A DNA stretch of 53,916 nucleotides from a virus, in the IMG/VR virus record IMGVR_UViG_3300009181_000096, positions 1 through 53,916 of that record; one strand, written 5' to 3'. The translations under genes were made by a program, and so were the position numbers. Shown one piece after another: positions 247 to 52,905 of the stretch. Within the stretch, counting starts at the first letter, position 1. The number at the start of each line of letters is the position of its first letter. Below the pieces are notes generated by a model. The model was not told where the DNA came from, did no database searches, and saw nothing but the letters and a program-made list of their open reading frames with translations.

Positions 247-738
247 ATGTCACAATATAAATTAACATCAGAGATAGTTCCTAGTACTAGCTGGTATAAT
301 AACGTTAGAAGCAATGTGTCAGAAAAAGAATGGGATTATTTAAGAAATAAATCTTATGAATCTGCTGGCAATAAATGTGAAATATGTGGTGATACTGGTA
401 AAAATCAAGGGTTTAACCACGATGTTGAATGCCATGAAATATGGGAATATGATGATAAAAATTATAGACAAAAATTAACTGGTTTAATTTCATTATGTCC
501 ATATTGTCATAAAGTAAAACATCCAGGCCTTGCAAAAATAAAAGGTGAAATTGATATTGTAATTAAACAATTAATTAAAGTTAATGGGATGAATGAAAAA
601 GAAGTTCAAGATTATCTAACTGATGTTTTTAGTCTTTATTTTAAGCGTTCACATTATAAATGGGTGTTAGATATTTCTTATCTTGATGAAACATTAAAAG
701 AATTTAATGAACTACCTTGGTGGAATAAAATGCTTTAA
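247..738 (+). CDS. HNH-like zinc-binding protein, 163 aa
   Basis: Two zinc-type pairs are visible, CEIC (about residues 45-48) and CPYCHKVKH (about 85-93), around a conserved VECHEIWEY block (about 60-68). This arrangement fits an HNH-nuclease-like treble-clef fold, although the catalytic residues cannot be assigned with confidence. A clear paralogue lies at 40645-41277; the two share PST near the N-terminus, KCEIC, GKNQG, ECHEIWEYDD, KL.GLISLCP and the helix after it. Activity is inferred: it could nick DNA or only bind zinc. It is the second gene of a short operon and overlaps the convergent gene by four bases. Confidence 0.65.
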   Translation: MSQYKLTSEIVPSTSWYNNVRSNVSEKEWDYLRNKSYESAGNKCEICGDTGKNQGFNHDVECHEIWEYDDKNYRQKLTGLISLCPYCHKVKHPGLAKIKGEIDIVIKQLIKVNGMNEKEVQDYLTDVFSLYFKRSHYKWVLDISYLDETLKEFNELPWWNKML

Positions 739-1283
739 TCATTATACTTAATGTTTTTCCATGGTATGATTAAATCCTTATCACAAACAATATGCTTTTC
801 TACTTTATAAGACCAATACCAATGCTCTGGTAATTCAATACCAGCATAAAAACTATTATTATTATAAGGGTCTTGTTTTATCTGTGTATTACCATACCCA
901 GAAATCATAATATCATTATTATCTATATAATCTGTTGTTGTATAACCATCTTCATAAGTCACTATTTTTTCATGTTTTTTAACTGGTAACTTATATATTA
1001 TTAACGCATAACCATCATATTTTTTTGCAAATTCAATATCGTTAGTAAACCATATCAATTTATCGGGAAATTTTGAAGCAACTAACATATAATCATTACC
1101 ATATGGAACTAACTCTGGATGTGCTTTAGTATTATCAAATTGATTTCTAAGTCCCCTATATAACGATAATTCAATATCTTTAACTTTAATTTCACTATGA
1201 ATAACTTTACCATGATTCTCAACTTCAAAATCAAAATCATCAATTAAACCTTCCCTTAATAACTTTTTAATAAACTCTTTCAT
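735..1283 (-). CDS. ADP-ribosyltransferase-like protein with capsid-targeting-type leader, 182 aa
   Basis: The start is placed at 1283 rather than the longer ATG at 1307, because a phage-type promoter motif sits at 1286-1295 and the protein then begins MKEFIKKLLREGL, the leader shared by many proteins here. After the leader come LYRGL (R43), then IWFTND..FAKKY (about 77-89) and a beta strand, a spacing that resembles the Arg and aromatic-Thr/Ser motifs of ADP-ribosyltransferase folds. T4 Alt and related packaged ARTs are the functional analogy. The catalytic Glu cannot be fixed; a candidate lies in VEKHIVC near the end. Function is inferred, not certain. Confidence 0.55.
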   Translation of the reverse strand: MKEFIKKLLREGLIDDFDFEVENHGKVIHSEIKVKDIELSLYRGLRNQFDNTKAHPELVPYGNDYMLVASKFPDKLIWFTNDIEFAKKYDGYALIIYKLPVKKHEKIVTYEDGYTTTDYIDNNDIMISGYGNTQIKQDPYNNNSFYAGIELPEHWYWSYKVEKHIVCDKDLIIPWKNIKYND

Positions 1284-1285
1284 AC

Positions 1286-1295
1286 TAATAAATAT
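1286..1295 (-). promoter_or_regulatory. Phage-type (late-like) promoter motif ATATTTATTA
   Basis: This copy of the recurring motif ATATTTAT[A/T] lies only a few bases before the ATG at 1283 and supports that start. Confidence 0.45.
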
Positions 1296-1303
1296 CCCAG
1301 AAC

Positions 1304-1993
1304 TCATAAAAGTTTTGTTCCCTTGATTAAATTATCTGGTCCCCACAGAGGCTGAAGATTAGCCAAACACCAACATAGTTTAAATTCTCTATCATCTGTT
1401 GTTTCGAAATTAAAACTGGCCATCGGTATCTTATGGTCAACATGCCATTCACCATAATTATCCCATGTCATACCTTCGGTGAATTGTTTCTCTAAATGAA
1501 CCATTAGCTCTTCCAATGTATATCCAAGTAATTCAAATGTTTTATTGGTCTTGTTGATGTTACGCTCTTTAAGTAATTGCCATACCGCTGTGCGAGTTCT
1601 AACACCTAATCTATACTTTGGGTCCTCAGCACGTCTTTTACGTTCATAATCACGCTTATATTTATTTACATGTTCTTTATTATCTTCTCTCCAAGTTCCA
1701 TGATACTTTCGTAAGGTTTCACGATTATCAGCTGACCAATCTTTATGGTATTCACTTCGTTTAGCTTTTACTTCTGGTTTTAATTCATATTTTTTTTGTG
1801 CAACTGATTTACCACCAATATTTCTTCGTCCAGACGGTCCCAATTCAACACCATTTTCTTTAAGTGTTCTAATAATTATTGTTTTATGTATTCCCATCTT
1901 TTCACTAATGGTAGTTGAACCAAGTAATTCTTCATTATACATTTTAAGACACTCAGCTAATTGTTCTTGGGTTAATTCTATTTTCCTACTCAT
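1304..1993 (-). CDS. Free-standing HNH endonuclease (homing type), 229 aa
   Basis: The N-terminal 45 residues form a helix-turn-helix-like region for resolving a DNA site. A long basic stretch follows (residues about 65-130), then the HNH block: WHVDHKIPMASF (about 182-193), a CWCLANLQPLW segment and a final DNLIKG. The His-Asp-His start and N-L-QPLW finish are typical of phage HNH homing nucleases. It has its own host-like promoter and sits next to the capsid gene, the usual position for an intronless homing gene. The target is not known. Confidence 0.8.
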   Translation of the reverse strand: MSRKIELTQEQLAECLKMYNEELLGSTTISEKMGIHKTIIIRTLKENGVELGPSGRRNIGGKSVAQKKYELKPEVKAKRSEYHKDWSADNRETLRKYHGTWREDNKEHVNKYKRDYERKRRAEDPKYRLGVRTRTAVWQLLKERNINKTNKTFELLGYTLEELMVHLEKQFTEGMTWDNYGEWHVDHKIPMASFNFETTDDREFKLCWCLANLQPLWGPDNLIKGTKLL

Positions 1994-1997
1994 AATA

Positions 1998-2028
1998 CAA
2001 ATATACTAATAATCGTTAATAAAGTCAA
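1998..2028 (-). promoter_or_regulatory. Host-like promoter, TTG-N20-TATATTTG
   Basis: On the minus strand TTG (2028-2026) is followed after 20 bases by TATATTTG (2005-1998), five bases before the ATG at 1993. The HNH gene is therefore expressed apart from the capsid operon. Confidence 0.7.
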
Positions 2029-2089: not shown

Positions 2090-3928
2090 TTAACGTAATT
2101 CGTTAACATTGAATGTAGGTACACCGTCCACTCTTACATGGCCATAGAACCTATTGTTCACAACTTTTTTAGCGTAACGTGTCATGATACCTTTAACTGG
2201 AGCAAAGTTAAATGGATTGTACATTGTTGGGGTTAATTGTAACGGCACGTATGGTGCGTAGATATAACCAGTATCCAATAATGATTTTCCTTTATGTCCA
2301 ATAACTACTGAGTAAGCTGGTGCATAAGGGTCACGATACACTTGGTAACGACCACTTAAAGTTCCAATTCTTTCAATACCCATGTTGTATTGGTCTTGCT
2401 CTGGGTTAGCATCACTTACGTGGAAATATTCTAAATCATCAAAAATAGCAGAGATTTCAGAAGATACAACGATAAAGTTAGCACCACCTCTAAGAGTAGA
2501 TTTATGTATTTGAGCAGATACTTGATTAACACGAGTAATCAAAGTTTGATTCCATTCTTTTTGAGTATATGGACTTGCAGCGGTAGAAGCTTTTCTCCAA
2601 CCATTGTAATCCCATCTCAATTGCCATGCAGCAGCTTTACGCAAATCTCTAAGGATTTCACGGTCAATCTCAGCAGCAACTTGTTCAGATAACATAGCTG
2701 TTAATTCAGCTTCAGCATCGATGTTGTGGAAAGCACTAACGTCTTGAGCAAGCTCTGGAGACCAAGTAGCTCTTAATTTTCTTTCTTCAACAGCAACAAC
2801 AACTTCGTCTAATTTGAAAGATACTTCTCCCATTTCGGTTTCAAGCTCTAATGTAGCATATTCAGCCCATGCAGCGTTAAAAGTAAATGCAGATGCAGTT
2901 GTAGCAGAAGCACCAACATAACCATCATAAGTAGCAGTACCAGCAGCAGCAGTACCAGTAGCAGTTGTTCCAACTGGGTGAGTCAAGTCTAAAGCTAAAT
3001 AAATAGTACCTGTAGCATCAGTTATAGAATTATAATCAACAATTCCTCTACCATATTTTTGAGTAACAACTCTAAAAGGTACAGATTTGTTTGAAGCAAC
3101 AACTACGTTAGCGTCTCTGTCTAAAATGTTAGCAGTAGTAACAATTTGTAAAGAAGCTAAGAAAGATTCAGTATCCATTTGGTTACCATCAGCACCTGTC
3201 ATTACTTGTTTGTTTGTGTTGTTTGGTGAAAAACCAGAAACGTTAACGATGATTTCTCTTAATGAACCATCAGTAGCAGTAGGCAAAGTACCAGTACCAA
3301 CTACAGGGTTACTAAAATCACCATTAGAATTAAAAGTTAATTTAGGTAAGCTAGCGTGAGTACGGATAGTTAAAGTACCTTTAGAGTTATCAAATAAACC
3401 ATCATTGTAGAAAATATCGTACAAGTTTTTAGCTTCGAAAGGTGTTACAACACATGTTCCAGCAGCTGGCAATACACATGAAGGAATTCCGTTAGATGCA
3501 AATGAAGTGTGTGCAGAGTAAGTAGTACCATAAACATCAGAAGATGCTGTAGAGGTATAATCACTACCAGCAACACCAGCACCGTCAACACGGCTAGAAG
3601 TTTGTGGTACGAAAAAGAATAATTTACCAATTGGCATGTTCATAGCTTGTACAGACACGATGTCGTTAGCTAATAATTTAGAGAAAACACGTCTTACGAT
3701 AGGGAAAACAACTGTTTCAAAAGAACCAGAGTTAGTAGCTGTTGTAGACTCGCTTAATAATGTAGACGCTTGGTTTTCATATAATTGAGCGATGTTTTCT
3801 TTTACGTGACCTCTAAGACCTTCTAAGAAGCCTAAAGAATCCCATTTAGATTGTGTTTCTTTACGGATAGCTTTCATATGGTTTAAACCAATATTTCCAA
3901 CTTGTCCAGATGTTAATAAATGTGACAT
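2090..3928 (-). CDS. gp23: Major capsid protein, T4 gp23-like, 612 aa
   Basis: The N-terminus (LLTSGQVGNIGLNHMKAI, then WDSLGFLEGL) and the C-terminal half (RGGANFIVVSSEI, and a FAPVKGIMTRYAK stretch) are those of T4-family major capsid proteins. The likely maturation cut is after Glu60 in LLSE, matching the L-x-E rule of gp21 proteases; T4 gp23 is cut at residue 65. The middle (about 110-350) is Thr/Ala/Gly rich with a probable surface insertion. It is last in the 17-20-21-22-23 order, with a strong A-rich leader and a terminator behind it, as expected for the most abundant virion protein. Confidence 0.95.
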   Translation of the reverse strand: MSHLLTSGQVGNIGLNHMKAIRKETQSKWDSLGFLEGLRGHVKENIAQLYENQASTLLSESTTATNSGSFETVVFPIVRRVFSKLLANDIVSVQAMNMPIGKLFFFVPQTSSRVDGAGVAGSDYTSTASSDVYGTTYSAHTSFASNGIPSCVLPAAGTCVVTPFEAKNLYDIFYNDGLFDNSKGTLTIRTHASLPKLTFNSNGDFSNPVVGTGTLPTATDGSLREIIVNVSGFSPNNTNKQVMTGADGNQMDTESFLASLQIVTTANILDRDANVVVASNKSVPFRVVTQKYGRGIVDYNSITDATGTIYLALDLTHPVGTTATGTAAAGTATYDGYVGASATTASAFTFNAAWAEYATLELETEMGEVSFKLDEVVVAVEERKLRATWSPELAQDVSAFHNIDAEAELTAMLSEQVAAEIDREILRDLRKAAAWQLRWDYNGWRKASTAASPYTQKEWNQTLITRVNQVSAQIHKSTLRGGANFIVVSSEISAIFDDLEYFHVSDANPEQDQYNMGIERIGTLSGRYQVYRDPYAPAYSVVIGHKGKSLLDTGYIYAPYVPLQLTPTMYNPFNFAPVKGIMTRYAKKVVNNRFYGHVRVDGVPTFNVNELR

Positions 3929-3965: not shown

Positions 3966-5195
3966 TTATTTTTTCTCTACTCTGTTAATTAAATCTAAGA
4001 TTCTTTTAGTAGATGGGTCAACATACGCAGTACTTTCGTTTAATTGTTTTGAAGTACTAGTAGCCGCTTCTTTAATTATTTTGTTATTTACAGACTCAGC
4101 AATTGGTTTTCTAGATTCCAATTCGTTAGCAATAGTTTTGTAAAGTTTTTTTGATTCAACTAAATTTGATACTTCAACATCAAAACGTTTAATAATGTTT
4201 TGTTTTTCAGCTTTAGTTGTTGAATGTTCCATGAATAATCTAGTTACATAAGTAAGATTACTATTGAATACTACTGTTTCTACTAACTGATTTCTAAAAG
4301 TTTTAAGAGCTTTTCTGAATTCTTCATTCTCAGTCTGTAATTTTTTAGCTTCAGTTAATAATGTATTATATTTTTTGGTTGTTTCAGAAACAATTTGTCT
4401 AGCTTTTTGTGATTCTTCCAAAGCTTTTTTAGGTTTTGGAATATGAGCAGAACCAGACCTTTTAGCACCTTGTCTACCAGCATGACCTCTAGTAGCGCCT
4501 AAATTCTCTTCTAACTCCTCTTCTTCCTCTTCTTCAGATTCTTCTTCTTCAGCTTCTTCCTCTTCAGCTTCTTCTTCTTCAGCTTCTTCTTCATTACCCA
4601 TTTCAATTTCGTAATTCATTTCTTCTTCAGCTTCTCCCTCTTCTTCAGATTCTTCTTCAGAATCTTCTAAATCAAGTTCTTCTTCAGCTTCCATTGAATC
4701 ACCCAAAGCACCTTTTTTAACAATGTACTCTCCTGGTTCGGTAATGTTTAAGTGAATTTCATCACCAACAATTTCGATTTCGTCTTCACCGCTTAATTTT
4801 TTGTAAATTGCGAAAACTTCATCATCTGATGCTCCTTTAGTCATATCATACACTCCACCTAACTCATCTGAGTCCATTCCAATTTTTGAATCCATTTCTG
4901 GAGCCACTTCTTCGGAGCCTTCGATATCATCTAATTCTGCATCGTCAGATTCTTCGTCACCTAATTCCATTGTATTGATATCAGCGTCACCGCCTAATTC
5001 TACAGCATCATCAGTTGATTCCAAATCCTCTTCTTCATAATCAGCTTCATTTTTCATAAGCGATTCTTTCACCACACTATCAATTTCTTCTTTAGCAACG
5101 CTACGAAGTATTTCTTTTGTGTTGGCATTTAAAGCAGATTGAATGTTTTTAATATCCAATAACGCTTCTTCAAGTATTGATTTTTTTTCAGCCAT
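3966..5195 (-). CDS. gp22: Prohead scaffold/core protein, gp22-like, 409 aa
   Basis: The protein is extremely acidic, with Glu-rich tracts at about residues 170-230 and Asp/Glu clusters before that, followed by a basic linker and a long helical coiled-coil half (about 255-370). The C-terminus (STKRILDLINRV) is typical of scaffold ends that contact the shell. Sequence identity to T4 gp22 is not obvious; the call rests on composition and on position between the protease and capsid genes. Several L/I-x-E sites would allow digestion by the prohead protease. A motif of the ATATTTATA type lies in the upstream gap. Confidence 0.8.
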   Translation of the reverse strand: MAEKKSILEEALLDIKNIQSALNANTKEILRSVAKEEIDSVVKESLMKNEADYEEEDLESTDDAVELGGDADINTMELGDEESDDAELDDIEGSEEVAPEMDSKIGMDSDELGGVYDMTKGASDDEVFAIYKKLSGEDEIEIVGDEIHLNITEPGEYIVKKGALGDSMEAEEELDLEDSEEESEEEGEAEEEMNYEIEMGNEEEAEEEEAEEEEAEEEESEEEEEEELEENLGATRGHAGRQGAKRSGSAHIPKPKKALEESQKARQIVSETTKKYNTLLTEAKKLQTENEEFRKALKTFRNQLVETVVFNSNLTYVTRLFMEHSTTKAEKQNIIKRFDVEVSNLVESKKLYKTIANELESRKPIAESVNNKIIKEAATSTSKQLNESTAYVDPSTKRILDLINRVEKK

Positions 5196-5327: not shown

Positions 5328-6050
5328 TTAATCTAATAAAAATTTATCTAATTTATCATTTAACCCACCTTCAATTAATGGTTTTTTCTTTTGTACGTTT
5401 TCTACATACGGTCTAATTTCTTCAGAACTCCTACCAATCCATGCATCTGGTGTTGAAGGTGCTGTTACAACATCCCAACATATTATCTCAAAATCGTCTT
5501 GTACTATTTGTTCACCATTTTTACCTTCTTTAAGCGAACCAACACCTCTAGATGATACACCTATTTTAATTCTGTTTCTTAATAGATTAGCGACTTCATC
5601 TCCTTTTGTTGATACAATACCATAATTAATATATCCAGGTGTCATTAGTATCTCCATTTTGCCCATAAGTGTATGACCTTCCCACCATGTCTCAACTATA
5701 TTGTGTGATATTCTATCACCAGCAATAACACTAGATTCTGGATGGTCTAATTCACCTACGGCTCTTCTTTCTTTGATTGCTTGTTGATATAACCTATCTT
5801 GTTGTTTTAATATGCTTTCTGGATAAACCCTACCATTACGGTTAAGGATACCATACTTCTGTAATACAACGTATACAATAAGCGGTTCAACAATAGTCAT
5901 TTTGCTACCTGTATCTAATTTTTTTATCTCATTGATAAAAGGTTGATTCCTAGGTTCATCAGGACTAATAAATCCAGCATCATGTTCGATTAAAACACCA
6001 GTCCCTGTTTCATGACGTTTCAATACTTTTAATTCGTTATAATTATGCAT
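5328..6050 (-). CDS. gp21: Prohead core protease, T4 gp21-like, 240 aa
   Basis: Motifs of the T4 prohead serine protease family are clear: GRVYPESIL (about residues 80-88), VGELDHPESS (about 105-114, candidate catalytic His) and IGVSSRGVGS (about 165-174, candidate catalytic Ser), with DVVTAPSTPDA further on. An ATG at 6104 is in frame but lies upstream of the phage-type promoter motif (6067-6076), so MHNYNEL at 6050 is preferred. The enzyme should cleave scaffold, capsid and leader-bearing internal proteins after Glu in L/I-x-E during head maturation. Confidence 0.92.
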   Translation of the reverse strand: MHNYNELKVLKRHETGTGVLIEHDAGFISPDEPRNQPFINEIKKLDTGSKMTIVEPLIVYVVLQKYGILNRNGRVYPESILKQQDRLYQQAIKERRAVGELDHPESSVIAGDRISHNIVETWWEGHTLMGKMEILMTPGYINYGIVSTKGDEVANLLRNRIKIGVSSRGVGSLKEGKNGEQIVQDDFEIICWDVVTAPSTPDAWIGRSSEEIRPYVENVQKKKPLIEGGLNDKLDKFLLD

Positions 6051-7226: not shown

Positions 7227-8018
7227 TTAACTATTTTTTAAATTATCTTTCAGTTCAATTAATTTAGATATATTTTTATTAAAATCTTCAATAACACTTT
7301 GCTTGTCATTTAATAATTTATCTTTAACTCGCAAAAGTTTATCTTTTACTTCTAAATCTGAATCAGATAGTTTTTCATTTATCAAATCAATACACTCTCT
7401 TATTGTTAATGAATATAATTCTTTTTTTTCTTCATCTGTTGATTCAATAAGAACTTTAAGTATTCTTTTTTCAGATTCATCCAAATCAGCATATCTTTCA
7501 TTATATTTATCAACCATTATATTAGCCAATAAACTAGATGGTAACTCATATGCTTCTACAATCTCTTTAGTTTTGTTGTTTAAAATATAATCAACAACTT
7601 CAGTAGTTGCATCTACAATCGTATCTATATTGTTTGGTGTTTTTTTTGTGAATATAAGTGTAGAGATATTTTGATGTAAATTTTTATGGTTATAATCAAT
7701 ATCTTCTTTTAATAAATCACCTTTATTAGATGATGTGATAAAACTAGATAAATTTTCATTTAACTCAATCATTTTTTTCTTATCAAATTTTGAAAATAAA
7801 TCAATATTTTCTTTAACAAATTGAGTTGCTTTCTCTCTATTAGACTCAATTTTATTTTCTATATTTGATACTACTAAAAATTGAGTTTTTAATATTTCAC
7901 TTTCTTTTACTGTCTTAACGTATTTTTTAAATAACTCAATAGATTTAGCGTCTTTAGTTGCTATACCCTCAGAAATTAAATCATTAAATACGTTTTTTAG
8001 TTTACCAAAATTCTTCAT
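7227..8018 (-). CDS. Helical head-core-like protein, 263 aa
   Basis: It begins MKNFGKLKNVFNDLISEG, a basic amphipathic peptide ending in an I-S-E site, which fits cutting by a gp21-type protease. The rest is almost entirely charged helix and coiled coil, including KVKDKLLRVKDKLLN near the C-terminus. Its position between portal and protease matches the minor core genes of T4. It has its own phage-type promoter motif at 8032-8041. A prohead core or internal protein is the best guess. Confidence 0.7.
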   Translation of the reverse strand: MKNFGKLKNVFNDLISEGIATKDAKSIELFKKYVKTVKESEILKTQFLVVSNIENKIESNREKATQFVKENIDLFSKFDKKKMIELNENLSSFITSSNKGDLLKEDIDYNHKNLHQNISTLIFTKKTPNNIDTIVDATTEVVDYILNNKTKEIVEAYELPSSLLANIMVDKYNERYADLDESEKRILKVLIESTDEEKKELYSLTIRECIDLINEKLSDSDLEVKDKLLRVKDKLLNDKQSVIEDFNKNISKLIELKDNLKNS

Positions 8019-8063: not shown

Positions 8064-10109
8064 CTATTCATCTAACATTTTATTAATATCATCAATCATT
8101 GTATTGATATTTTGATTTACTTTTATGTTTTTATCGTAAATTTTAACTTTTTCTTCTTTTATTTTTTCATCTGGTTTTATTGACTCAACAAGAGTAACAA
8201 ATCTTCCTTGGTATTTTTTTGTTCTAGCATCCAATTTTTTAGATATTGCGTCTTTTCTTTCTATCAATAATTTTTCAGTTTTCATTATAGATTCTGCTAA
8301 CCCTTCAGTACTACCTGCTTCAGCACCTACTTCAGCTGCACCTGCTTCTGCACCTGCTTCAGCTGTTGCACCACCTTCTTCTTCAGCACCTGTCTCACCA
8401 CCAAAATCTAAATCTTCACCACTTACTCCACCGCCACCGAATGAGCCACCTAGGCCGCCACCGCCACCTCCAGAACTAGAGGATTCTCCACCAGCACCTT
8501 CTTCACCAGCTCCACCACCTTCAAGCGCTTTCTGATAATCGCCATATATTTTATCTACAACATCAAACATACCAGTATGTTTTATTACTGCACTAGAATT
8601 AGCTAATTCAGCAGCTGCTGCTTTCTCCATTCTTTGTTCTAGTAAATCTTTCTTAATTTCATCATCAGACCATCCTAGAATCTCTCTATGTGCTCTTGTC
8701 ATAGACATAGTACCAAAACCATTTCCAGCATCAGATACAGCATCTTTATATAAAGTAACTTTAAGTTGAGTATGTTCAACCTTAAGCATTTCAGCTTGAG
8801 TTGATGGGTTATTTAATGTAAGTGTAAAATTATCTAAATCCTCTTCAAACCCTAAGATATATAAATGAATAATAGCAATCTTATTAAGTTCTTGTAACAT
8901 AGATTGTTGTATTCTATTAATCGTTCTAGAAAAACGAATATCTTGTAAAGCTAAATTTTTACCATCACCAGCAGCCTCTTCAAAACCTAAAAATGGTTTT
9001 GGTACTCTAAGTGATGTGAATAAATTCTTTTGTAAGTATTCTATATCAGCAATTTGGTCCAAGTTAGTTGCTCCAGGCAATGTATCAATTGGTGTTGGCG
9101 CATTTTCAGAACGAACTGGTATGAAATAATCTTGGTCATTAGATAATTGATTATATCTAAGGTCCATTTGACCAGTTTGTGGGTCAGTTATTGGCATCCT
9201 TTTAAATCTGTCAGCAATTGTATTTACGTATTGTTCAACATCAGCATCATCAATGTTACCGACATAGATTTTATATACACGTCTTTCTGGTGCTCTAGTC
9301 ACACGATAAACAAGCATTGAATCCTCAGATAGTATTAATTGTTTCCAAACACGTCTAGACTTCTCTAAAACAGATGTACCGTAAGGTAAACGTCTATCAT
9401 CACCTAATAAACGGAAGTGAGCAATTTGCCATGAATTAAATTCAACATCACGACCTCTCCAAAAAAACTTAACTTTATCTGTTGATGAACTTTTCTCCAA
9501 TGTATTTGGTGTTTCTCTTCCAGATACCATATCAAATAATCCAGTTTCTCTTCTTTCCATTTCGTAATTAGGTAATTGCTTAGCACTAATTATTCCATTT
9601 TTATCATCAATATTTAGATAAACAAAATTATCACCATATTTGCAAGTGTTTCTAGTAAACATTGGTAATGAAGTGTGTAAATCTAACCTGTTAAAAAATA
9701 AATCTTCTAATATAGTTTTAACTCTATTACTATCAGAATAAACATTAAGCATTCTACCATGCTGATTAAGCGTTGTAGACTCTTCCATCATAATATCTAA
9801 TGCTGCTGCTATTGTTGGATAAAACTCCATAGCTTCAAAATCGGAATAAGAACCAATACGAGTTGTTTCATAATTAATTGATTGTTGAAACAATCCACTC
9901 TCTACCTTTTTCCATACTTGACCCAAATATTTATTTTGTTGAGCCTGTAGTTTAGCTCTCTCAAAATCAGCTTTGTTATCTGTTTTAAGTAATTCACCAT
10001 TACCTATATTATAACGTTGAGTTGATGTTGTTTGTGATTGTTTAACGTTACTAGGATTTAATACTTGCCCTAGTTTCTGAAATATTGTTAGATTTTTATT
10101 ATCTGCCAT
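8064..10109 (-). CDS. gp20: Portal protein, T4 gp20-like, 681 aa
   Basis: The core matches T4-type portals: YPTIAAALDIMMEEST (about 92-107), CKYGDNFVYLN, SWQIAHFRLLGDDRRLPYG, RVTRAPERRVYKIYVGN, a DQIADIEYLQKNLF segment and RVPKPFLGF. The family length is near 520; here a long C-terminal extension adds a Gly/Ser/Ala/Glu low-complexity stretch (about 535-605) and a basic helical tail. The portal dodecamer forms the packaging and ejection vertex. The gene follows the terminase with one 81-residue gene between. Confidence 0.95.
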   Translation of the reverse strand: MADNKNLTIFQKLGQVLNPSNVKQSQTTSTQRYNIGNGELLKTDNKADFERAKLQAQQNKYLGQVWKKVESGLFQQSINYETTRIGSYSDFEAMEFYPTIAAALDIMMEESTTLNQHGRMLNVYSDSNRVKTILEDLFFNRLDLHTSLPMFTRNTCKYGDNFVYLNIDDKNGIISAKQLPNYEMERRETGLFDMVSGRETPNTLEKSSSTDKVKFFWRGRDVEFNSWQIAHFRLLGDDRRLPYGTSVLEKSRRVWKQLILSEDSMLVYRVTRAPERRVYKIYVGNIDDADVEQYVNTIADRFKRMPITDPQTGQMDLRYNQLSNDQDYFIPVRSENAPTPIDTLPGATNLDQIADIEYLQKNLFTSLRVPKPFLGFEEAAGDGKNLALQDIRFSRTINRIQQSMLQELNKIAIIHLYILGFEEDLDNFTLTLNNPSTQAEMLKVEHTQLKVTLYKDAVSDAGNGFGTMSMTRAHREILGWSDDEIKKDLLEQRMEKAAAAELANSSAVIKHTGMFDVVDKIYGDYQKALEGGGAGEEGAGGESSSSGGGGGGLGGSFGGGGVSGEDLDFGGETGAEEEGGATAEAGAEAGAAEVGAEAGSTEGLAESIMKTEKLLIERKDAISKKLDARTKKYQGRFVTLVESIKPDEKIKEEKVKIYDKNIKVNQNINTMIDDINKMLDE

Positions 10110-10401: not shown

Positions 10402-12849
10402 TTATTTCATTTTATTTTGACCACTAAATAACCACGCATACTGACCAGTAGGGTCTTGAACATTTTTATATGCAGGGTGTTTTTGGTTTACCGTTGTTAT
10501 TGTTTTTTTTGTGTTGCTATCTGTAGTTGTGATAGTTGGTCTATTACTAGAACCAACAGCCCAGCTATTTAATATTGCTTTTGTTTGTTTTTCTAACTTT
10601 TCTAGGTTTTTAAAAGAATGTTCCAAAACCCATAAACACATTGCCAAAGACATAATTAAATCGTCATGATAACCATCCATGTGGTCTGGTCTTCCATTTT
10701 TATATATAAATGTCTTTAATTCCGATGTAAGTCGTCTGGAACGTATTTTAACAGTATCTGTTCTAATACTATATTCCAAATTTGAAATCATTGGTAAACG
10801 AACATTTGTTGCTTGAAAACCAGGTATTTTATCTCCTTTGCCATAAGAAACCATTTCTCTTTGTCTAGTTGATAATACTTTACCACCTAAAGAATCATAA
10901 TGCAATCGCTTATAATCAAATTCAAGTAGTTTTAATACTGTAGAAACACCCATACCACCAGTAATATCGACTACTGCATATGCTTTATACATTTCACCAT
11001 ATTGTTCAACTAATTGCGCAAGTAAATCTGGTTGTATTTTACCTTGATATTCCAAAACTTGTTCCATAGTAGTGAAATCTAAAATAACAATAGTAGAAGC
11101 ATCCTCACCATCACCCCTAGATACATCGCATCCGAGTATGTATTGATGACCTTCTTTTGGTTCTTCCCATATCCATGTTTCTTGTTCTGACCCTAACATC
11201 ATTATTGGGTCTTTTACATTAAACTTATTTTGATTATCAATATATTCTTCACTAATAACGTTACCACCAGAACCTATGAATGAAACGTCTAACTCTTGTG
11301 CTATCATTTTAGCATCATTGTTCATACCTCTACACATTTCCTCATACCAAAATGATGTTGGTTTCCATCCATCATCAATCATTTTATTATATGAATCAAA
11401 GGTAAATTCGTATTCTTCAAAAACTTGGTCACCTTTAAGCCATTTAAGGCCTTTATTATAACGCAAATCCTCATACCATTTCATTTCAATGATATTGAAG
11501 TTATTTTTTTTGCTCTTTGCTTGGTCGTAAGTTTTGTAATATAACGCATCCATACCCCTTGGAGTTGATATTAGCGTAGCTTTACCCCCAGTATTATGGC
11601 TAACTATACCATTTGATATGAATGAATTAGTTTCTGGTACGTGTAAATCATACGTATAATCTTCCCCCTTAGTTATTTCAATTATCTCATCAATAATTAT
11701 ATTATTAAAATCGTGAGTAAAGGTTATTTTAACTAACATATCCCCATCTATTATTGATATAATACCCATATTAAATAATAAAGATTGGACCCTTCTTAAG
11801 GTGTTCTTATTTGTGTTAATAAAATAATCACGACCAAAAAATAATTTTCCAATATAATCAATTAAAATTTCTTTTTTTGCTTTTAATAATTCGTTTGACG
11901 TATAAATATAATCATTATCATTAATCACGTAATCATTTTCACCAAAATAATTTTGACCATAATTAATTATTGGTTTATCACCAACAGCTAATTCATTCAT
12001 TCGTACCCAAACTTCTTCACCATTTCTATTAATTAATAATGGATGTTTCCAACTACCCTCTAACTCTATACCTAATTTTGTTTTTATTTTAAAAGTTTCA
12101 CCATACTCACTTACAAATGTTTGGGTTGCTGGTGTTAAAATACCGTCTTTATTACAAACCATATGTGGTGTTTCTAAATCAGTAAACCCTAATTTATCTT
12201 TTTCAGTAACCAATTCATCTAACTCAACTAAACCATTTTCGGTTAATATCAATGAGTCTTTAGTTAAACAACCTAAAGCTGTAAGGGCCGCACCAAATAC
12301 TTCATCACCATTATCAATATAGGCAGCCTCATCCATTACAAGATAAGTTGGGGTAAATCCACGCAAGGCATCTTTAGATGTAGCTACCGCTTTTACACGA
12401 CTACCATTAGGTAGTTTAATTTCTTTTTTAGAGTCTGTTAAGAATATAGATTTACTTTCATTCTTACTATTACCATAATACTCATCACCCCAAACCCATC
12501 TAGGTAATTGTGATAAAAAATCTTTAATCTTAGCCAAAAACTCAAAAGCTAACTCTTGCTTATTCGCAATAATTAGAATAGCTTCTGGATTTTGTTCGTC
12601 AGCAAAACCAACTTTTATTGACATATATGCAGCTGTTGTTGTTGATACCCCAGCCTGTCTAGGTTTAGTAATTAAATTAAATCTATGTTTTTCGTATGCG
12701 TAAATAATTTCTTTTTGTCTAGGAAAAAGCTTAAATGGAACAAACCCTTCTTGAGTTTTATCAAATGTCTCTAGATAAGCCTCAATTGCATAAACTGGAC
12801 TTGTTAAACATTTTGCATACTCTTTGAATATTTCATTGGTTGTTAACAT
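10402..12849 (-). CDS. gp17: Terminase large subunit, T4 gp17-like, interrupted by an intein, 815 aa
   Basis: The ATPase half shows Walker A KPRQAGVST (62-70) and Walker B YLVMDEAAYI (169-178); the coupling motif LISTPRG follows the intein. The nuclease half has acidic metal-binding residues in GCDVSRGDGEDAS (about 573), VVDITGG and HDDLIMS (about 728). Residues 194-419 are an intein, leaving about 589 residues after splicing, close to T4 gp17. It packages DNA into the prohead through the portal. A phage-type promoter motif lies at 12862-12871. Confidence 0.95.
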   Translation of the reverse strand: MLTTNEIFKEYAKCLTSPVYAIEAYLETFDKTQEGFVPFKLFPRQKEIIYAYEKHRFNLITKPRQAGVSTTTAAYMSIKVGFADEQNPEAILIIANKQELAFEFLAKIKDFLSQLPRWVWGDEYYGNSKNESKSIFLTDSKKEIKLPNGSRVKAVATSKDALRGFTPTYLVMDEAAYIDNGDEVFGAALTALGCLTKDSLILTENGLVELDELVTEKDKLGFTDLETPHMVCNKDGILTPATQTFVSEYGETFKIKTKLGIELEGSWKHPLLINRNGEEVWVRMNELAVGDKPIINYGQNYFGENDYVINDNDYIYTSNELLKAKKEILIDYIGKLFFGRDYFINTNKNTLRRVQSLLFNMGIISIIDGDMLVKITFTHDFNNIIIDEIIEITKGEDYTYDLHVPETNSFISNGIVSHNTGGKATLISTPRGMDALYYKTYDQAKSKKNNFNIIEMKWYEDLRYNKGLKWLKGDQVFEEYEFTFDSYNKMIDDGWKPTSFWYEEMCRGMNNDAKMIAQELDVSFIGSGGNVISEEYIDNQNKFNVKDPIMMLGSEQETWIWEEPKEGHQYILGCDVSRGDGEDASTIVILDFTTMEQVLEYQGKIQPDLLAQLVEQYGEMYKAYAVVDITGGMGVSTVLKLLEFDYKRLHYDSLGGKVLSTRQREMVSYGKGDKIPGFQATNVRLPMISNLEYSIRTDTVKIRSRRLTSELKTFIYKNGRPDHMDGYHDDLIMSLAMCLWVLEHSFKNLEKLEKQTKAILNSWAVGSSNRPTITTTDSNTKKTITTVNQKHPAYKNVQDPTGQYAWLFSGQNKMK
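11593..12270 (-). mobile_element. Mini-intein in the terminase large subunit, 226 aa
   Basis: The insert starts with Cys194 (CLTKDSLILTENG) and ends NGIVSHN at Asn419, followed by Thr420 as the +1 nucleophile. It lies between Walker B and the coupling motif, a conserved stretch. The splicing blocks are present (WKHPLL with block B His; YTYDLHVPETNSF as block F). The middle keeps only a decayed half of a LAGLIDADG domain (LLKAKKEILIDYIGKLFFG, then RRVQSLLFNMGI) without acidic active-site motifs. It is probably splicing-competent but no longer mobile. Confidence 0.88.
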
Positions 12850-46451: not shown

Positions 46452-47438
46452 TTATTTAACCATATTATTACCTAACAAATTCTCACGATTCATTCTTTTA
46501 ATTATATCAATCCTCCACTTACCTTTATAAGGGTCAATCAAACTTTTATTAATAATAGTTAATGATGGTGATAATGAAATCATATCATCAAAACTTAAAT
46601 CATCCCAAACATCTTCATGTTTTCTTTTCAATTGCTTAATATTATGTATTTGTGATTGTAACTCCATTTTTGTTGCATTTACTGGAATACCCTTTAAATC
46701 AACAGTACCAAATTCAGTGGCCTTTTTAGTCCTTTTATTTATATGTTGATTATGCATAGTATCATCCAACCAATGTACCAATTCATGATGAATACTACCC
46801 TTTATTGTCGATTCTTTAAATTCTCTAGATAGTGATTTCTTTTGATTATCATCAGATAATAAATCAATAGCATAAGCTAAATCACCATTACCATTGCTAA
46901 CAATGAAATTTTCAGCATTCTTATTAATACTAAGTGATATAATTTGCTTGTTTGGAAAATAATAGTTAGAACCATTATTTATTATAATAACACATGGATT
47001 TAATTTATGTGCTTCAATACATAATGGTGATTTTAATATAGAAGTATCAGTAGTATTACTTTTAAATATTTTATGACTTATTTTACCAGTACTTTCTATT
47101 TCATCAAAATCACTCTTAAAATATTTCTCATATATCATATCAACATCATCATCAATATCCATCAAATGCTCAGATATTAAATCCTCATTTAATTTGCTAG
47201 GAAAATATTTCCTAATCATTTTATTTATCTTATCCTTATCATTAAAAGCAACAGCCTCAACAAAATTATCATAAATACTACAATAAAGTTTATCCTTCTT
47301 ACACTTAAGCTTTAATTCTTCTATCTCATTAGAATATGTATGAATAAGAACACCTTGTGCATATTTAACATCTTCCTTATTACCAACCTCTTTTGATTGA
47401 AAATTCTCCCTTAATAATCCCTTTATAAATTCTTTCAT
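46452..47438 (-). CDS. HExxH metallopeptidase-like protein with capsid-targeting-type leader, 328 aa
   Basis: The leader MKEFIKGLLRENFQS is nearly identical in codons as well as residues to those of the genes at 735 and 48935. The peptidase motif IHHELVHWLDD gives His218, Glu219 and His222; a downstream ATEFG may hold the third ligand. The N-terminal 200 residues are mixed helix/strand with acidic patches. A packaged zinc peptidase acting on a host protein is the best guess. It follows the 64-residue gene by six bases. Confidence 0.7.
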   Translation of the reverse strand: MKEFIKGLLRENFQSKEVGNKEDVKYAQGVLIHTYSNEIEELKLKCKKDKLYCSIYDNFVEAVAFNDKDKINKMIRKYFPSKLNEDLISEHLMDIDDDVDMIYEKYFKSDFDEIESTGKISHKIFKSNTTDTSILKSPLCIEAHKLNPCVIIINNGSNYYFPNKQIISLSINKNAENFIVSNGNGDLAYAIDLLSDDNQKKSLSREFKESTIKGSIHHELVHWLDDTMHNQHINKRTKKATEFGTVDLKGIPVNATKMELQSQIHNIKQLKRKHEDVWDDLSFDDMISLSPSLTIINKSLIDPYKGKWRIDIIKRMNRENLLGNNMVK

Positions 47439-47444
47439 AGTAAT

Positions 47445-47639
47445 CTATTTTTCAATACCACTAATTATTATATTAATAAAATCATTAGCATTATGTGAAC
47501 CAAAATCCTTATTAAATACATTAACAACTGCAATAGCAAATTCTTTACTGCTCATGTTACTATCCTCAACAAATCTACTCAATTCATCAGAATGTGACGA
47601 AATACTCTCTCTTAATTTAATTCTTATCTTATCTTTCAT
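47445..47639 (-). CDS. Small protein with leader-like start, 64 aa
   Basis: The protein begins MKDKIRIKLRESISSHSDEL with L-R-E at residues 9-11, then a helical SKEFAIAVVNVFNKDF and a short C-terminal helix. The phage-type motif lies at 47658-47667. It is the first gene of a two-gene unit with the metallopeptidase-like protein. No family recognised. Confidence 0.6.
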   Translation of the reverse strand: MKDKIRIKLRESISSHSDELSRFVEDSNMSSKEFAIAVVNVFNKDFGSHNANDFINIIISGIEK

Positions 47640-48934: not shown

Positions 48935-51046
48935 TTAATTACCCAATAATTCTTTATATAAAACCTTAACTCTTTCACTTGGATTCTTTATATATCGTAT
49001 TGCATAATCATTTTGTTTAACAGCTGCTAACTGTACTTGTTCACTTGGATTCTTTATATATTCTATTGCATAACCATATTTATTAACAGCTGCTAACTGT
49101 ACTTGTTCACTTGGATTATTTATATATACTATTGCCTCACCATTTTGTTTAACAGCTAATAACTGTACTTGTTCACTTGGATTATCCATAAATTGTATTG
49201 TATTACCATTTCGTTTAACAGCTGCTAACTTAACTCTTTCACTTGGATTCTTTATATAATCTATAGCATCACCATTTTTATTAACAGCTGCTAACTGTAC
49301 TTGTTCACTTGGATTATCTATAAATCGTATTGCATAACCATCTTGTTTAACAGCTAATAACTGTACTTGTTCACTTGGATTATTTATATATTGTATTGCA
49401 TCACCATATTTATTAACAGCTGCTAACTTAACATCTTCACTTGGATTATTTATATATCGTATTGTATCACCATATTGATTAACAGCTAATAACTGTACTT
49501 GTTCACTTGGATTATCTATAAATCGTATTACTTTACCATTTCGTTTAACAGCTAATAACTTAACTCTTTCACTTGGTGTAATACCCCTTTTTATTATGAA
49601 ATCTATAGCATCACCATATTTATTAACAGCTGCTAACTGTACTTGTTCACTTGGATTCTTTATATATTGTATTGCATTACCATTTCGTTTAACAGCTGCT
49701 AACTTAACATCTTCACTTGGTGTAATACCCCTTTTTATTATGAAATCTATAGCATCACCATATTGATTAACCGCTGCTAATTGTAATTGCTCACTTGGAT
49801 TTTCTATGTAATATATAGCATTACCATTTTGTTTAACCACTTCCAATTTAACTTCTTCATTTGGGTTATTATCAAGCAATACTGTAATTTCAAACACAGT
49901 TAAATAATAATCATTATTTAATTTAAGTCGTATGTTTCTTAATATCTGCTTATTACTTAAATAATCTTTAATCTCCATAAAACTTTCTTTATTTAATCTG
50001 ATAAAATAACCAGACTCAATCAACGAATCCTTTAAACTGTCCCTTAACGATGCCAATTGCTCAATAGGTATGATAACACCAGTAGCCGCATAATCCCTTA
50101 TGAAATCTTCAGCAGTTACCTGACTGCCATTTATTACCAACCCCTTTATCTTATCATCAATAAGACCCTGCAAATCATCAATATCAGATTTCTTAAGATT
50201 ATTCAAAAGAGTATTGTATTCCTTCTCATCTTCAGTTACAGCCCTATATGGAAAATATTTCTCTTTGCCCCTTAAATTAGGTATCTGACTTTCAACATTA
50301 GCCCATGGCATCGCCAAATCAATTCCACCATGCCTTTTACCACTATTGCTCCTGTCAGCAATCGCATAACCCCTATTACCGTAATTCATTATAACCAATT
50401 TATGCTCAACATCCGAATCTTTGTTTTTCTTCTGTAATACAAAATATGGAGTCGCACCATAATTAAGCCTATACGTATTGTAATAATTTAACTCTGGCTT
50501 TGTAATACACCATCTCTCTCCCTTACCATACATAACACACTTTGCCTTTGTGTCGGTATTCAATATAATAATATTATCATCCTCATAAACAATATCCTCA
50601 CTCTTTGGCTTATATATACTATGCGTATCCCCAATTCCATTATCCTTAATCCAACCACTGTTGTTTACCAAATCAACCAAACCCTGCTCAATCTTCTTCA
50701 TGGAAAATGGTTGAACATCCCCACTAACACTCTTTATGTTTGAAACATATGCATCCAAATACTTTGTGGCCAATTCCTTGTTAGATACAAAAGCGCTTGT
50801 CTTTATCAATTCATTAATAGTATTCTCATACCACTTATCATAAACAGCATCAAAACTATCTTTAGTTTGATACTTGTTAATGTCACCAAATATATTCCTG
50901 TATATTGATGCAATCGCTAACTTATTTAATAACTCCTCGTCATTCTCAGATACACCAAACCTAGTAGCAACAGATTTAATAATGTTCTTACCATAAACTT
51001 CACGTACCAAACCCTCCCTTAATAATGCCTTTATGAATTTTTTCAT
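48935..51046 (-). CDS. Leader plus W-C-I domain plus 13 DUF4116-like repeats, 703 aa
   Basis: The leader is MKKFIKALLREGLVRE. Residues about 20-140 are helical. Residues about 150-260 hold the W-C-I domain (IVYEDDNIIILNTDTKAKCV, YGKGERWCITKPEL, ATPYFVLQKKN). A linker (FIRDYAATGVIIPIEQL, about 315-331) matches the N-terminus of the neighbouring repeat proteins. Residues about 395-688 are 13 repeats of PSE.VQLAAV...G.AI.YI.N, 22 residues each, two with a 4-residue insertion. It thus looks like a fusion of the two adjacent gene types. Repeats probably stack as a helical solenoid for protein binding; a packaged effector is likely. Confidence 0.75.
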   Translation of the reverse strand: MKKFIKALLREGLVREVYGKNIIKSVATRFGVSENDEELLNKLAIASIYRNIFGDINKYQTKDSFDAVYDKWYENTINELIKTSAFVSNKELATKYLDAYVSNIKSVSGDVQPFSMKKIEQGLVDLVNNSGWIKDNGIGDTHSIYKPKSEDIVYEDDNIIILNTDTKAKCVMYGKGERWCITKPELNYYNTYRLNYGATPYFVLQKKNKDSDVEHKLVIMNYGNRGYAIADRSNSGKRHGGIDLAMPWANVESQIPNLRGKEKYFPYRAVTEDEKEYNTLLNNLKKSDIDDLQGLIDDKIKGLVINGSQVTAEDFIRDYAATGVIIPIEQLASLRDSLKDSLIESGYFIRLNKESFMEIKDYLSNKQILRNIRLKLNNDYYLTVFEITVLLDNNPNEEVKLEVVKQNGNAIYYIENPSEQLQLAAVNQYGDAIDFIIKRGITPSEDVKLAAVKRNGNAIQYIKNPSEQVQLAAVNKYGDAIDFIIKRGITPSERVKLLAVKRNGKVIRFIDNPSEQVQLLAVNQYGDTIRYINNPSEDVKLAAVNKYGDAIQYINNPSEQVQLLAVKQDGYAIRFIDNPSEQVQLAAVNKNGDAIDYIKNPSERVKLAAVKRNGNTIQFMDNPSEQVQLLAVKQNGEAIVYINNPSEQVQLAAVNKYGYAIEYIKNPSEQVQLAAVKQNDYAIRYIKNPSERVKVLYKELLGN
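48983..49864 (-). repeat. Tandem coding repeats, 66-bp unit, 13 copies
   Basis: The unit encodes PSE.VQLAAV..NG.AI.YI.N. Eleven copies are 66 bp and two are 78 bp with an inserted KRGI-type segment. Neighbouring units differ in sequence, so this is an old expansion with ongoing exchange and not a CRISPR array. Confidence 0.85.
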
Positions 51047-51065: not shown

Positions 51066-51075
51066 ATATAAATAT
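51066..51075 (-). promoter_or_regulatory. Phage-type (late-like) promoter motif ATATTTATAT
   Basis: This motif copy lies 19 bases upstream of ATG 51046. Confidence 0.5.
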
Positions 51076-51087
51076 ATAATGTTAAAT

Positions 51088-51121
51088 AAAAAAACCCTAG
51101 ACCAATAATCTAGGTTTTTTT
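51088..51121 (-). terminator. Intrinsic terminator, second copy of the duplicated pair
   Basis: CCTAGA/TCTAGG plus A and T arms after the gene ending at 51130. It matches the 48881 element except that one C is unpaired here (three C against two G). Confidence 0.75.
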
Positions 51122-51129
51122 ATTATATC

Positions 51130-51945
51130 TTATCTTTCATATCTTTTATTATATAATTGGTTATATAAACTTATAGTTTTATCCGTAGGGTTATCTATTT
51201 TATAAATAGCATTTTCATTTTCTTTAACTGCGGTCATCTGAACAGCTTCTGATGGTTCATCAATATGTTCAATTAAATTACCATTATCTGCAACAGCAAC
51301 CAATTGAACCCTCTCTGTTGGCTCCCAAATATATTTTATATAAGATGAGTCATATTCAACTGATATTAATTGCGCAGCTTCACATGGATTTTGAATATCA
51401 TCAATCACTCTAGAGTCTTGTTTAACTGCCGCTATCTGAACTTCGTCAGATGGATTTTCTATATACGCTATTGCCACACCATCTTCTTGAACTGCTGCCA
51501 ACTTAACAGCCTCACTTGGGTTTTTAATATCCTCAAGACGTTCATAATTTTTTCTAACAGCAAGTATTTGAACAGCTTCAGTTGGTTTTTTAATAAACCT
51601 CAATGAATAACTATCATTATTAACTGCCGCTAATTGAACTTCTTCAGATGGTTCATCAATATAATATATCGATTCACCCTCTTTTCTAACTGCCTCTATT
51701 TTAACTCTTTCAGTTGGTTCATCGATTTTTTTAATTAAATCTGGGTCTTGCCTAACTATAGTTAGTTGAAGGTCTTCTGGTAATTCACCATAATAGAATT
51801 CTATGTTATCTGGGTCATACTTAATACTTATCTCCATCTTCCTTAAATAACTCTTCTTATCATTAGGCGATAATTTATCAAACTGATACCTAGGTATACC
51901 TACCCCTGTATCTACATATTGTGATATTAAATCCTTATTTGTCAT
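51130..51945 (-). CDS. DUF4116-like repeat protein, 271 aa
   Basis: An N-terminal linker (LISQYVDTGVGIPRYQFDKL) and MEISIKYDPDNIEFYYGELP lead into about nine repeats of 22 residues with the pattern P(S/T)E.VQLAAV...D...I..I.(E/N). The repeats are more diverged than those of its neighbours. It starts three bases after the stop of the W-C-I gene at 51949, so the pair is co-translated and probably works as one unit. No catalytic motif is visible; a binding scaffold is likely. Confidence 0.7.
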   Translation of the reverse strand: MTNKDLISQYVDTGVGIPRYQFDKLSPNDKKSYLRKMEISIKYDPDNIEFYYGELPEDLQLTIVRQDPDLIKKIDEPTERVKIEAVRKEGESIYYIDEPSEEVQLAAVNNDSYSLRFIKKPTEAVQILAVRKNYERLEDIKNPSEAVKLAAVQEDGVAIAYIENPSDEVQIAAVKQDSRVIDDIQNPCEAAQLISVEYDSSYIKYIWEPTERVQLVAVADNGNLIEHIDEPSEAVQMTAVKENENAIYKIDNPTDKTISLYNQLYNKRYER

Positions 51946-51948
51946 ATA

Positions 51949-52905
51949 CTATTTCCCAATTAAATAATCAAATTGGTCATTGGTCAACTGATGACCCCTT
52001 CCAATATATGCTGATTTATATTCTATAGGTAACTTCATAAACCATTCAAGACTATTGTTAGGGTTACCCAATAATTCATCCTCTTTTCTCTCTTGGTCAG
52101 TTTTAGGTTTATTAATCATCTTTTCAACTGGAACACCTTTGGATTTCAAATAATCAACATAAGCATCTGCATTTTCACCATATTCAGCAATATTACCAGT
52201 AGTATTATTAGCATCTGTTAATTCAATACCATGTTTTGTAACATCAAATACCACAATATGTAATGGGTCATCCAAATTAACTGAACCATCCGCATCTTCT
52301 TTAAAATGATTCCTGTCAATAATGAAATAAAAACTTGATGTCTTTGTATCACGATATGATTTATATATCGTATTACCAGGCTGACCAATACAAAACGAAT
52401 AAGCCTTTCCAGTCAAACCACCCTGCGTATAACTAATACACTTACCAACACCATTACCTTCATATATGTCAATACCATTACCACTCCAAAGCGTTTTCTT
52501 ATCAGCCTTGAAATCAGCAGCCACATTTAAACCACCTTTTGGCTTTTCAGCATACTTATTTGTTTCACCATGAATATACTCAGAAAACTTAATAAAATCA
52601 GTAAACTCCTTTTCACCAATCTTAATACTAGTTTTGGTCAATTGTATAGGTTTGATTCTTTTCTTAATTTCTAATGCATCATACTCATTCATAATATCAA
52701 TGATATTCTTTATATCAGTATATCCATTAACATATATAAATGCCATAACTGGAATGTTCTTCTGATTTTTGGATTTATCACCAGATGCCATTTTCTGTAT
52801 TATCCCATCCGCATTTTCAATATTACCACTACTTAATATCTTAAGACCTTGAGATTCTGTTGCTTTTGATTCTAATAATTGATTGTAAATTTCTAAAATT
52901 TTCAT
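51949..52905 (-). CDS. Leader plus F-C-I domain protein, 318 aa
   Basis: The N-terminus MKILEIYNQLLESKATES holds an L-L-E site. Residues about 135-250 form the W/F-C-I domain: GNGIDIYEGNGVGKCISY, KAYSFCIGQPGNTIYKSYRD, SSFYFIIDRNHF and ELTDANNTTGNIAEYG. The C-terminus (LEWFMKLPIEYKSAYIGRG, then LTNDQFDYLIGK) resembles linkers that precede repeat regions. It is followed immediately by the repeat gene at 51130. The domain is of unknown function but recurs in phage multi-domain proteins. Confidence 0.7.
   Translation of the reverse strand: MKILEIYNQLLESKATESQGLKILSSGNIENADGIIQKMASGDKSKNQKNIPVMAFIYVNGYTDIKNIIDIMNEYDALEIKKRIKPIQLTKTSIKIGEKEFTDFIKFSEYIHGETNKYAEKPKGGLNVAADFKADKKTLWSGNGIDIYEGNGVGKCISYTQGGLTGKAYSFCIGQPGNTIYKSYRDTKTSSFYFIIDRNHFKEDADGSVNLDDPLHIVVFDVTKHGIELTDANNTTGNIAEYGENADAYVDYLKSKGVPVEKMINKPKTDQERKEDELLGNPNNSLEWFMKLPIEYKSAYIGRGHQLTNDQFDYLIGK

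Follow-up and report, generated by a model that had tools for sequence, protein, structure and literature searches.

Unrelated proteins of a bacterial virus with a T4-type head gene block share a short N-terminal peptide, M-K-x-F-I-K-x-L-L-R-E (leader A), that by analogy with phage T4 works, in all likelihood, as a cleavable capsid-targeting sequence (CTS). We analyzed a 53,916-base stretch, the entire IMG/VR virus record IMGVR_UViG_3300009181_000096 (hereafter the window), for which an initial annotation had proposed that proteins with this peptide are packaged in the head, trimmed by a gp21-like protease and injected with the DNA. Our results support a capsid-targeting leader cleaved by a gp21-type protease, and packaging, cleavage and injection would follow as they do in T4. 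The reading draws on the association of leader A with the T4-type prohead protease (Peptidase S77) and major capsid protein (MCP, gp23), the LLRE ending of T4 gp24's propeptide, L-x-E sites in the clade's own head proteins, a shared upstream TATTTAT element and a second, different leader (leader 2) that also ends in L-x-E.

The exact leader A pattern occurs three times in the window, always at a gene start (1251-1283, 47406-47438 and 51014-51046, all on the minus strand). When the open reading frame (ORF) starts of the window were scored with a leave-one-genome-out matrix, trained on other genomes only, five reached at least 8 bits, whereas 300 column-permuted matrices gave 0.05 on average and never more than 2. 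These are the starts of the 735, 48935, 46452, 32282 and 47445 genes (named by the first coordinate in Table 1), the first three of which have the exact pattern. The open frame of the 735 gene has an earlier ATG at 1307, but the leader starts at the second one, at 1283. The count of at least ten window proteins with a shared leader did not hold in full, as about seven carry leader A. Among these, the 27397 and 27837 genes score low and are supported by their homologs. Of 21 homologs of 27397 with distinct N-termini, nine are listed; among those, the exact leader is present in L041 and L052 and a close form (MSKGFIKQLLRE) in L073, two begin MKKSLLKEH instead, and some consist of the body without any leader. 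We dropped the 37426 gene, which scores below 4 bits: its homologs are alike over their entire length (59-65%), which indicates one conserved family and gives no evidence for a shared leader, although L-x-E is kept in three of four full-length homologs. The N-terminus of 7227 does end in LISE, kept as [LI]-x-E in its relatives, but it is a different leader. The 31339 gene, absent from the earlier list, begins with MRKFDKIKNIQKANLINE (leader B), which by eye resembles the 7227 N-terminus. The excess of L-x-E-type ends at N-termini was confirmed, with [LIV]-[LI]-x-E in the first 35 residues of 19 of 58 chosen window genes versus 8.6 ± 2.0 in interior stretches.

Elsewhere, the exact pattern matched 50 stretches on 45 viral contigs, versus two stretches for a codon-reversed control; two of these 45 records contain genes of the window itself: six of its head proteins match G032 (109 kb) at 100% identity, and G041 (12 kb) has its 735 gene, likewise at 100%. 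In cellular genomes (257 Gb according to the database description), the exact pattern was present six times, once at a plausible gene start (L370), and a search for the S77 protease in those six genomes found none. Leader matches lie within 31 codons of the frame opening with at least 50 amino acids (aa) left in 51 of 53 cases, as against 4 of 39 for the control pattern. Profile hits comprise 81 distinct N-termini in 41 body families (first 17 residues removed), with none in 39 control loci; families, here and for the 60 of leader 2, were formed by single linkage, which for leader A merged some seemingly unrelated bodies. As in a T4-type CTS, a short N-terminal peptide is thus common to unrelated bodies. 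Across the 41 family representatives, I5 and L9 are present in 41, K2, R10 and E11 in 39, K6 in 36, L8 in 35 and L13 in 30, after which the counts drop; this conservation, including that of the L-x-E ending, is partly by construction, because the profile was built from pattern hits. Leader starts of at least 8 bits number nine in G032 and eight in G007, partly in islands, and those of at least 10 bits number two in G029, one in G036 and four in G015. A de novo test for shared N-termini in G036 and G029 returned no leader A cluster, and tblastn of the N-terminus of a 112-aa family against isolated phages returned nothing.

The window encodes a T4-type head block on its minus strand, with MCP, scaffold-like protein, S77 protease, core-like proteins, portal and terminase, and its gene order from portal to MCP is that of T4. 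The gp21-like protease claimed at 5328-6050 was confirmed by matches to PF03420 (E 1.7e-24, 86.9 bits against a cut-off of 27) and to the T4 gp21 structure 5JBL (1.8e-15). S77 proteases of the window type conserve a His block, GEL[ND]HP, and a Ser block, GV[AS]SRG[LV]GSL, which we take to be the location of the catalytic residues. Among exact-leader records, 26 of 45 encode S77, compared with 3 of 39 control records (p 9e-7). Because the control records are shorter, we repeated the comparison on records of at least 20 kb, where S77 is present in 19 of 30 leader records and 1 of 10 controls (p 0.008). Every one of the 26 exact-leader records in which gp23 is near-complete encodes S77 (the gp23 gene is split over two frames in G014 and interrupted by two stops in G044), and none of the records examined has a near-complete gp23 and no S77. 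By Pfam, 16 of the 19 leader records without S77 have no gp23 and three have a piece of it (that of G016 is cut by the contig end), and we assume that these records are incomplete genomes. A search of the large S77-less records G007 and G020 with the window's portal, terminase and protease gave no match; tblastn detected two MCP-like fragments in G007.

The cleavage rule behind the initial proposal, that T4 gp21 cuts CTS proteins after L/I-x-E, is given in a review (PMC9026906), which also states that the first 10 residues of T4 IPIII suffice for packaging and that the CTS may be an evolutionary route for taking diverse proteins into the capsid. T4 gp24 begins MAKINELLRES, and its PDB chains of 427 and 417 (virion) residues align with a shift of 10; for gp23, chains of 521 and 456 residues align with a shift of 65. 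By these shifts, cleavage in T4 falls behind LLRE in gp24 and FLTE in gp23. Opposite FLTE, all 19 distinct clade MCP sequences aligned have L-[ST]-E, and core proteins of the 7227 type have [LI]-x-E at the leader end in 11 of 11 with a complete N-terminus, the window's proteins being included in both sets; the clade's own MCP and core proteins thus share the L-x-E motif at their predicted cleavage sites. Leader A itself often offers another candidate site five residues on (LLRExLLxE), with L, I or V at residue 14 and E16 in 14 of 55 representatives, and L/I-x-E falls anywhere in residues 12-26 in 19 of 55 versus 5.8 expected from bodies. In the 46452 protein, the leader and a stretch of ~70 aa precede a region that aligns to the N-terminal leader of two homologs. 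The LLRE part of this internal equivalent has decayed but LISE is retained. This hints at the second site as the functional one and at two cuts in the chain, of which the internal LISE may be the second.

At conserved identical residues of the leader, codon identity is 0.598 versus 0.542 expected. Leader codons therefore vary nearly as freely as those of the bodies, and conservation acts at the protein level. The TATTTAT element, counted strand-specifically within 50 nucleotides (nt) upstream of genes, precedes 37 of 79 leader genes (shuffle mean 4.5) and all of the S77 (15/15), core (11/11) and terminase (5/5) genes, against a background of 17-27% of ORFs of at least 120 aa in four genomes. 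It would most naturally be read as a late promoter. In several genes (735-1283, 27397-27834, 37748-38089 and relatives), TATTTAT lies only 4-5 nt before the ATG, and the mRNA would be nearly leaderless if the element is a promoter.

Other leader classes extend the pattern. Among cultured relatives, Flavobacterium phage immuto (host Flavobacterium sp. LMO8) ranks first by MCP, with 38% identity over 58% of the protein; the uncultured LR756508 ranks just above it. Over the 150,000 of its 160,366 bases that were examined, leader A was not found; immuto carries two other shared N-termini, M(E/D)NFDLKKFLVENKLT (leader 2) and MKKSQLRQIIKEAL. Its leader-2 proteins are immuto35A_3, 193 and 194 and the MENTFDLKKFLVENKLT protein. 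Leader 2 occurs in at least 120 stretches; among the matches listed, 140 of 144 sit 3-4 residues after Met, 111 proteins fall into 60 body families, and 100 of 114 end in [LIM]-x-E at residues 17-22, versus 5.0 at random. Because the search pattern stopped at residue 13, this ending is a prediction of the capsid-targeting hypothesis borne out independently of the pattern. Among the same matches, S77 is present in 19 of 32 records tested and in all nine of at least 50 kb; the 32 are records of at least 18 kb drawn from 80 of the at least 120 matches, with one record of that length overlooked. The second immuto class (MKKSQLRQIIKEAL) comprises 28 records, with 21 families among 28 proteins, and S77 is present in 13 of the 28 and in four of four of at least 50 kb, immuto included. 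Leader B was recovered de novo from three G007 proteins that begin alike, and its pattern matches 13 stretches in viral contigs. The choice of patterns for leaders 2, B and D was informed by immuto and G007, and immuto (G106) is itself among the leader 2 and class D records. At least four tag classes have been met: MKxFIKxLLRE(xLLxE), MRKxDKxKNxxKANLLSE, MKKSELRQIIREELLKE and M(E/D)NFDLKKFLVENKLTxNSRxLxE. Some proteins have doubled or nested tags, and cleavage may then yield two cargoes from a single chain. We consider it more likely than not that S77/gp23 phages widely keep lineage-specific 'address tags' ending in L-x-E, with very different effector bodies exchanged behind them.

The bodies carried by leader A were scanned with Pfam for 40 of 57 listed representatives. 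A domain above cut-off is present in 11 (ART-PolyVal in three, NUDIX, GNAT and SprT-like in two each, poly(A) polymerase and GP88 in one each), six have matches below cut-off only, two of them to ADP-ribosyltransferase (ART) families, and 23 have no match at E 0.01. Sets of leader proteins differ among the eight sequences examined, except that the window and G032 have the same set. As to the body types initially described for the window, HExxH motifs were read by eye in 27397, 46452 and 32282, and repeat domains were identified in 48935 as DUF4116; ART-like bodies found no Pfam support in the ten window proteins scanned, while ART-PolyVal domains are present on leader proteins of relatives. 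The body of the 735 protein matched neither Pfam nor PHROG, and a hunt for its homologs returned three loci, of which two are copies of the window gene itself; searches for homologs of the 32282 and 47445 proteins found none. Structure models of the 735 and 46452 proteins reached a mean predicted local distance difference test score (pLDDT) of 53 and 61, respectively, and Foldseek searches with these low-confidence models gave no match with E below 0.5 and no fold assignment.

Several points weigh against a gp21-cleaved capsid-targeting leader or against its generality. Because the records are related to one another, the association tests lack independence. Of the exact-leader records, 19 of 45 have no S77, five of them longer than 50 kb (G003, G007, G016, G020 and G025), and among leader B records only 3 of 13 have S77; among eight of the ten without it, examined for gp23, no near-complete copy was found. 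TATTTAT precedes 0 of 21 MCP, 1 of 7 portal and 4 of 9 scaffold genes, and 42 of 79 leader genes are without it. Conservation of the leader extends beyond the residues that an L-x-E site needs, so the leader must have another binding role. De novo tests of two further S77 phages, RM378 and Mel-JY01, found no shared leader ending in L-x-E (three Mel-JY01 proteins begin alike, with M[ND]T[EK]EIDFKFN), so the rule is not established for every S77 phage. We found no virion proteome for the clade.

Four other explanations were considered. Targeting and cleavage could be right while the bodies serve as minor components of the head or core or in DNA condensation, either staying in the virion or acting in assembly, and are not injected effectors. 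The many bodies without a Pfam match or with matches below cut-off only would fit such a role, as would a leader gene of G009 (259-aa family) that lies 75 nt after the MCP gene, like T4 gene 24 after 23 (with segD between), and the assembly role that PMC9026906 gives to T4 IPIII. The enzyme-like and other known domains in 11 of 40 representatives, and the variation of leader protein sets between genomes, make this unlikely. Binding to a membrane or host component, with no link to the capsid, would suit a peptide that is basic and amphipathic and whose residues 2-12 (46452) and 2-10 (735) were modelled as helical at low confidence. It would not account for R10 and E11, each retained in 39 of the 41 family representatives (partly by construction), for the S77 association and the LLRE shared with the T4 gp24 propeptide, or for a second L-x-E in register and a different leader 2 that also ends in L-x-E, and we regard it as improbable.

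It is more doubtful still that the peptide is a by-product of a DNA-level cassette, with a promoter or start-region element copied along with the first codons. TATTTAT often stands shortly before the ATG and codon identity is slightly above expectation, but the codons are nearly as variable as in the bodies, head genes have TATTTAT without this leader, and a leader of other sequence ends in the same protease motif; we set this explanation aside on the codon identities. As little credence attaches to common descent, in which the proteins would be fast-diverging copies of one old gene, with the N-terminus the last recognizable part and no targeting function. Leader genes are indeed clustered (7.9-16.5 kb in G032 and 71-79 kb in G007), but the bodies belong to different Pfam families, unrelated domains that already sit badly with this explanation; the same body occurs with and without a leader among relatives of 27397, and leaders can be tandem or nested.

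A capsid-targeting leader would act as follows. Proteins of unrelated fold, with the leader at their N-terminus and presumably made late, would bind the prohead core through it and be enclosed by the assembling gp23-type shell. Cleavage by the S77 prohead protease would then take place behind the glutamate of LLRE, behind the second L-x-E located five residues further, or at both sites; the leader would be lost, and the freed bodies would stay with the DNA and be delivered into the next cell. Injected head proteins have so far mostly been found phage by phage through proteomics. If the reading is true, the tag becomes a sequence-only detector of a large unseen set of injected phage proteins: tied to a protease, it would allow such proteins to be listed from metagenomes and would point to likely enzymes of host takeover and anti-defence (ADP-ribosyltransferases, acetyltransferases, NUDIX proteins and others), and the leaders would supply new packaging tags.

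Table 1 Features of the window discussed in the text
Feature	Position	Strand	Basis
Leader A MKEFIKKLLRE of 735 gene	1251..1283	-	Exact pattern; 35.0 bits leave-one-out
Leader protein, 182 aa	735..1283	-	L169 homolog (51-53% identity) with leader too
Leader A MKEFIKGLLRE of 46452 gene	47406..47438	-	Exact pattern; 27.1 bits
Leader protein, 328 aa, HExxH (HHELVHW)	46452..47438	-	Alignment with homologs
Internal LISE, residues 87-90 of 46452 protein	47169..47180	-	Aligned with LLSE/ILSE of N-terminal leader of two homologs
Leader A MKKFIKALLRE of 48935 gene	51014..51046	-	Exact pattern; 30.4 bits
Leader protein, 703 aa, DUF4116 repeats	48935..51046	-	PF13475 2.1e-27
Probable leader MRKFIKETLRANLLSE of 32282 gene	33371..33418	-	12.2 bits
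378-aa protein, HExxH (HEMIH, by eye)	32282..33418	-	Peptidase matches sub-threshold only
Weak leader MKDKIRIKLRE of 47445 gene	47607..47639	-	9.1 bits
Tandem degenerate leader MKPKIKNTLKE + KIKQLLRE of 27397 gene	27397..27462	+	4.5 bits; homolog support
145-aa HExxH protein with tandem leader	27397..27834	+	Weak metallo-protease PHROG 0.0036
Leader-like N-terminus MNTIKALLKEELALNDRRKLLSE of 27837 gene	27837..27905	+	Both L-x-E sites kept in two homologs; <4 bits
Leader B MRKFDKIKNIQKANLINE of 31339 gene	32218..32271	-	Same type de novo in G007
TATTTAT, 4 nt before ATG of 735 gene	1288..1294	-	
TATTTAT before 48935 gene	51068..51074	-	
Major capsid protein (gp23)	2090..3928	-	Match to T4 gp23
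Predicted MCP propeptide cleavage site LLSE, after E60	3749..3760	-	Aligned opposite FLTE of T4 gp23
Acidic scaffold-like protein, gp22 position, between MCP and protease	3966..5195	-	Gene position
Prohead protease, Peptidase S77 (T4 gp21 homolog)	5328..6050	-	PF03420 and T4 gp21 structure match
Putative prohead core protein, between protease and portal (gp67/68 position)	7227..8018	-	Gene order versus T4
Core-type leader MKNFGKLKNVFNDLISE of 7227 gene	7968..8018	-	[LI]-x-E ending kept in relatives
Portal (gp20)	8064..10109	-	Gene position; homologs found
Large terminase with intein-like insert	10402..12849	-	Position and reading by eye

Further observations concern neighboring genes and relatives. 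Similar repeats (NPSEQVQLAAVNQ...) occur in three nearby window genes (48935-51046, 51130-51945 and 52963-53850), assigned to DUF4116 by Pfam in the first and by eye in the others, and only 48935 carries the leader. Inteins are apparent by eye in the terminase-like (10402-12849), thymidylate-synthase-like (19532-21850) and Clp-ATPase-like (23753-27346) genes. Another shared N-terminus, around I-I-T-E-x-Q, links 37748-38089 with proteins in G029 and G020 and is perhaps a further leader class; six proteins of G015 (L064-L071) begin MNQxNxxGxxHGxW, with MORN-like repeats by eye. The S77 frames of some class-D-leader records contain in-frame TGA codons (three each in G132 and G137, two in G131), which suggests stop-codon reassignment. 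Fragments of gp23 are embedded in small non-capsid frames of this phage group, for example MCP residues 370-430 in a 199-aa frame at 62% identity. Such frames, all outside the window, lie at L176 ~1462-1644, L178 ~1513-1653, G015:102097-102414, G007:88751-88933 and G148:121592-121738, and they are possibly decoys or capsid-incorporation modules.

The closest known counterpart is the CTS of T4 IPI, IPII, IPIII and Alt, which like leader A is N-terminal (10-19 residues in T4, according to PMC9026906), is carried by different bodies, ends in L/I-x-E and occurs in a phage with gp20-, gp21- and gp23-type genes. The sequences differ: by eye, T4 IPIII MKTYQEFIAE and MKxFIKxLLRE have in common M-K, an aromatic residue at position 4 and the L/I-x-E end, too little to call them homologous, and we therefore write that leader A works like the T4 leader, not that it descends from it. 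Leader A also differs from the T4 CTS in often having a second L-x-E and in its many more and more varied bodies, one genome here can hold more than one leader class, and the function of the leaders here is predicted from sequence. The propeptide of T4 gp24, MAKINELLRE, has the same LLRE end after ten residues (eleven in leader A) and is missing from mature gp24, but it belongs to one shell protein, whereas the LLRE ending here is found on many unrelated proteins. The principle is thus already known from T4, while the scale, the parallel leaders and the nested tags are without description in the open literature searched; no account of these leaders was found in open-licence work on capsid targeting, prohead proteases or immuto. 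Ejection proteins of phiKZ and SPN3US likewise involve the N-termini of head proteins, which in those phages are cut by the prohead protease; according to PMC5694885, several of their propeptides are longer than 100 residues and SPN3US has an A-x-E motif, unlike the leaders here, which are of 11-18 residues and end in L-x-E. Polyvalent proteins (PMC5512222) share the ART domain, seen here as ART-PolyVal on leader proteins, but they are multidomain polypeptides, whereas the proteins described here are small and united by a common leader.

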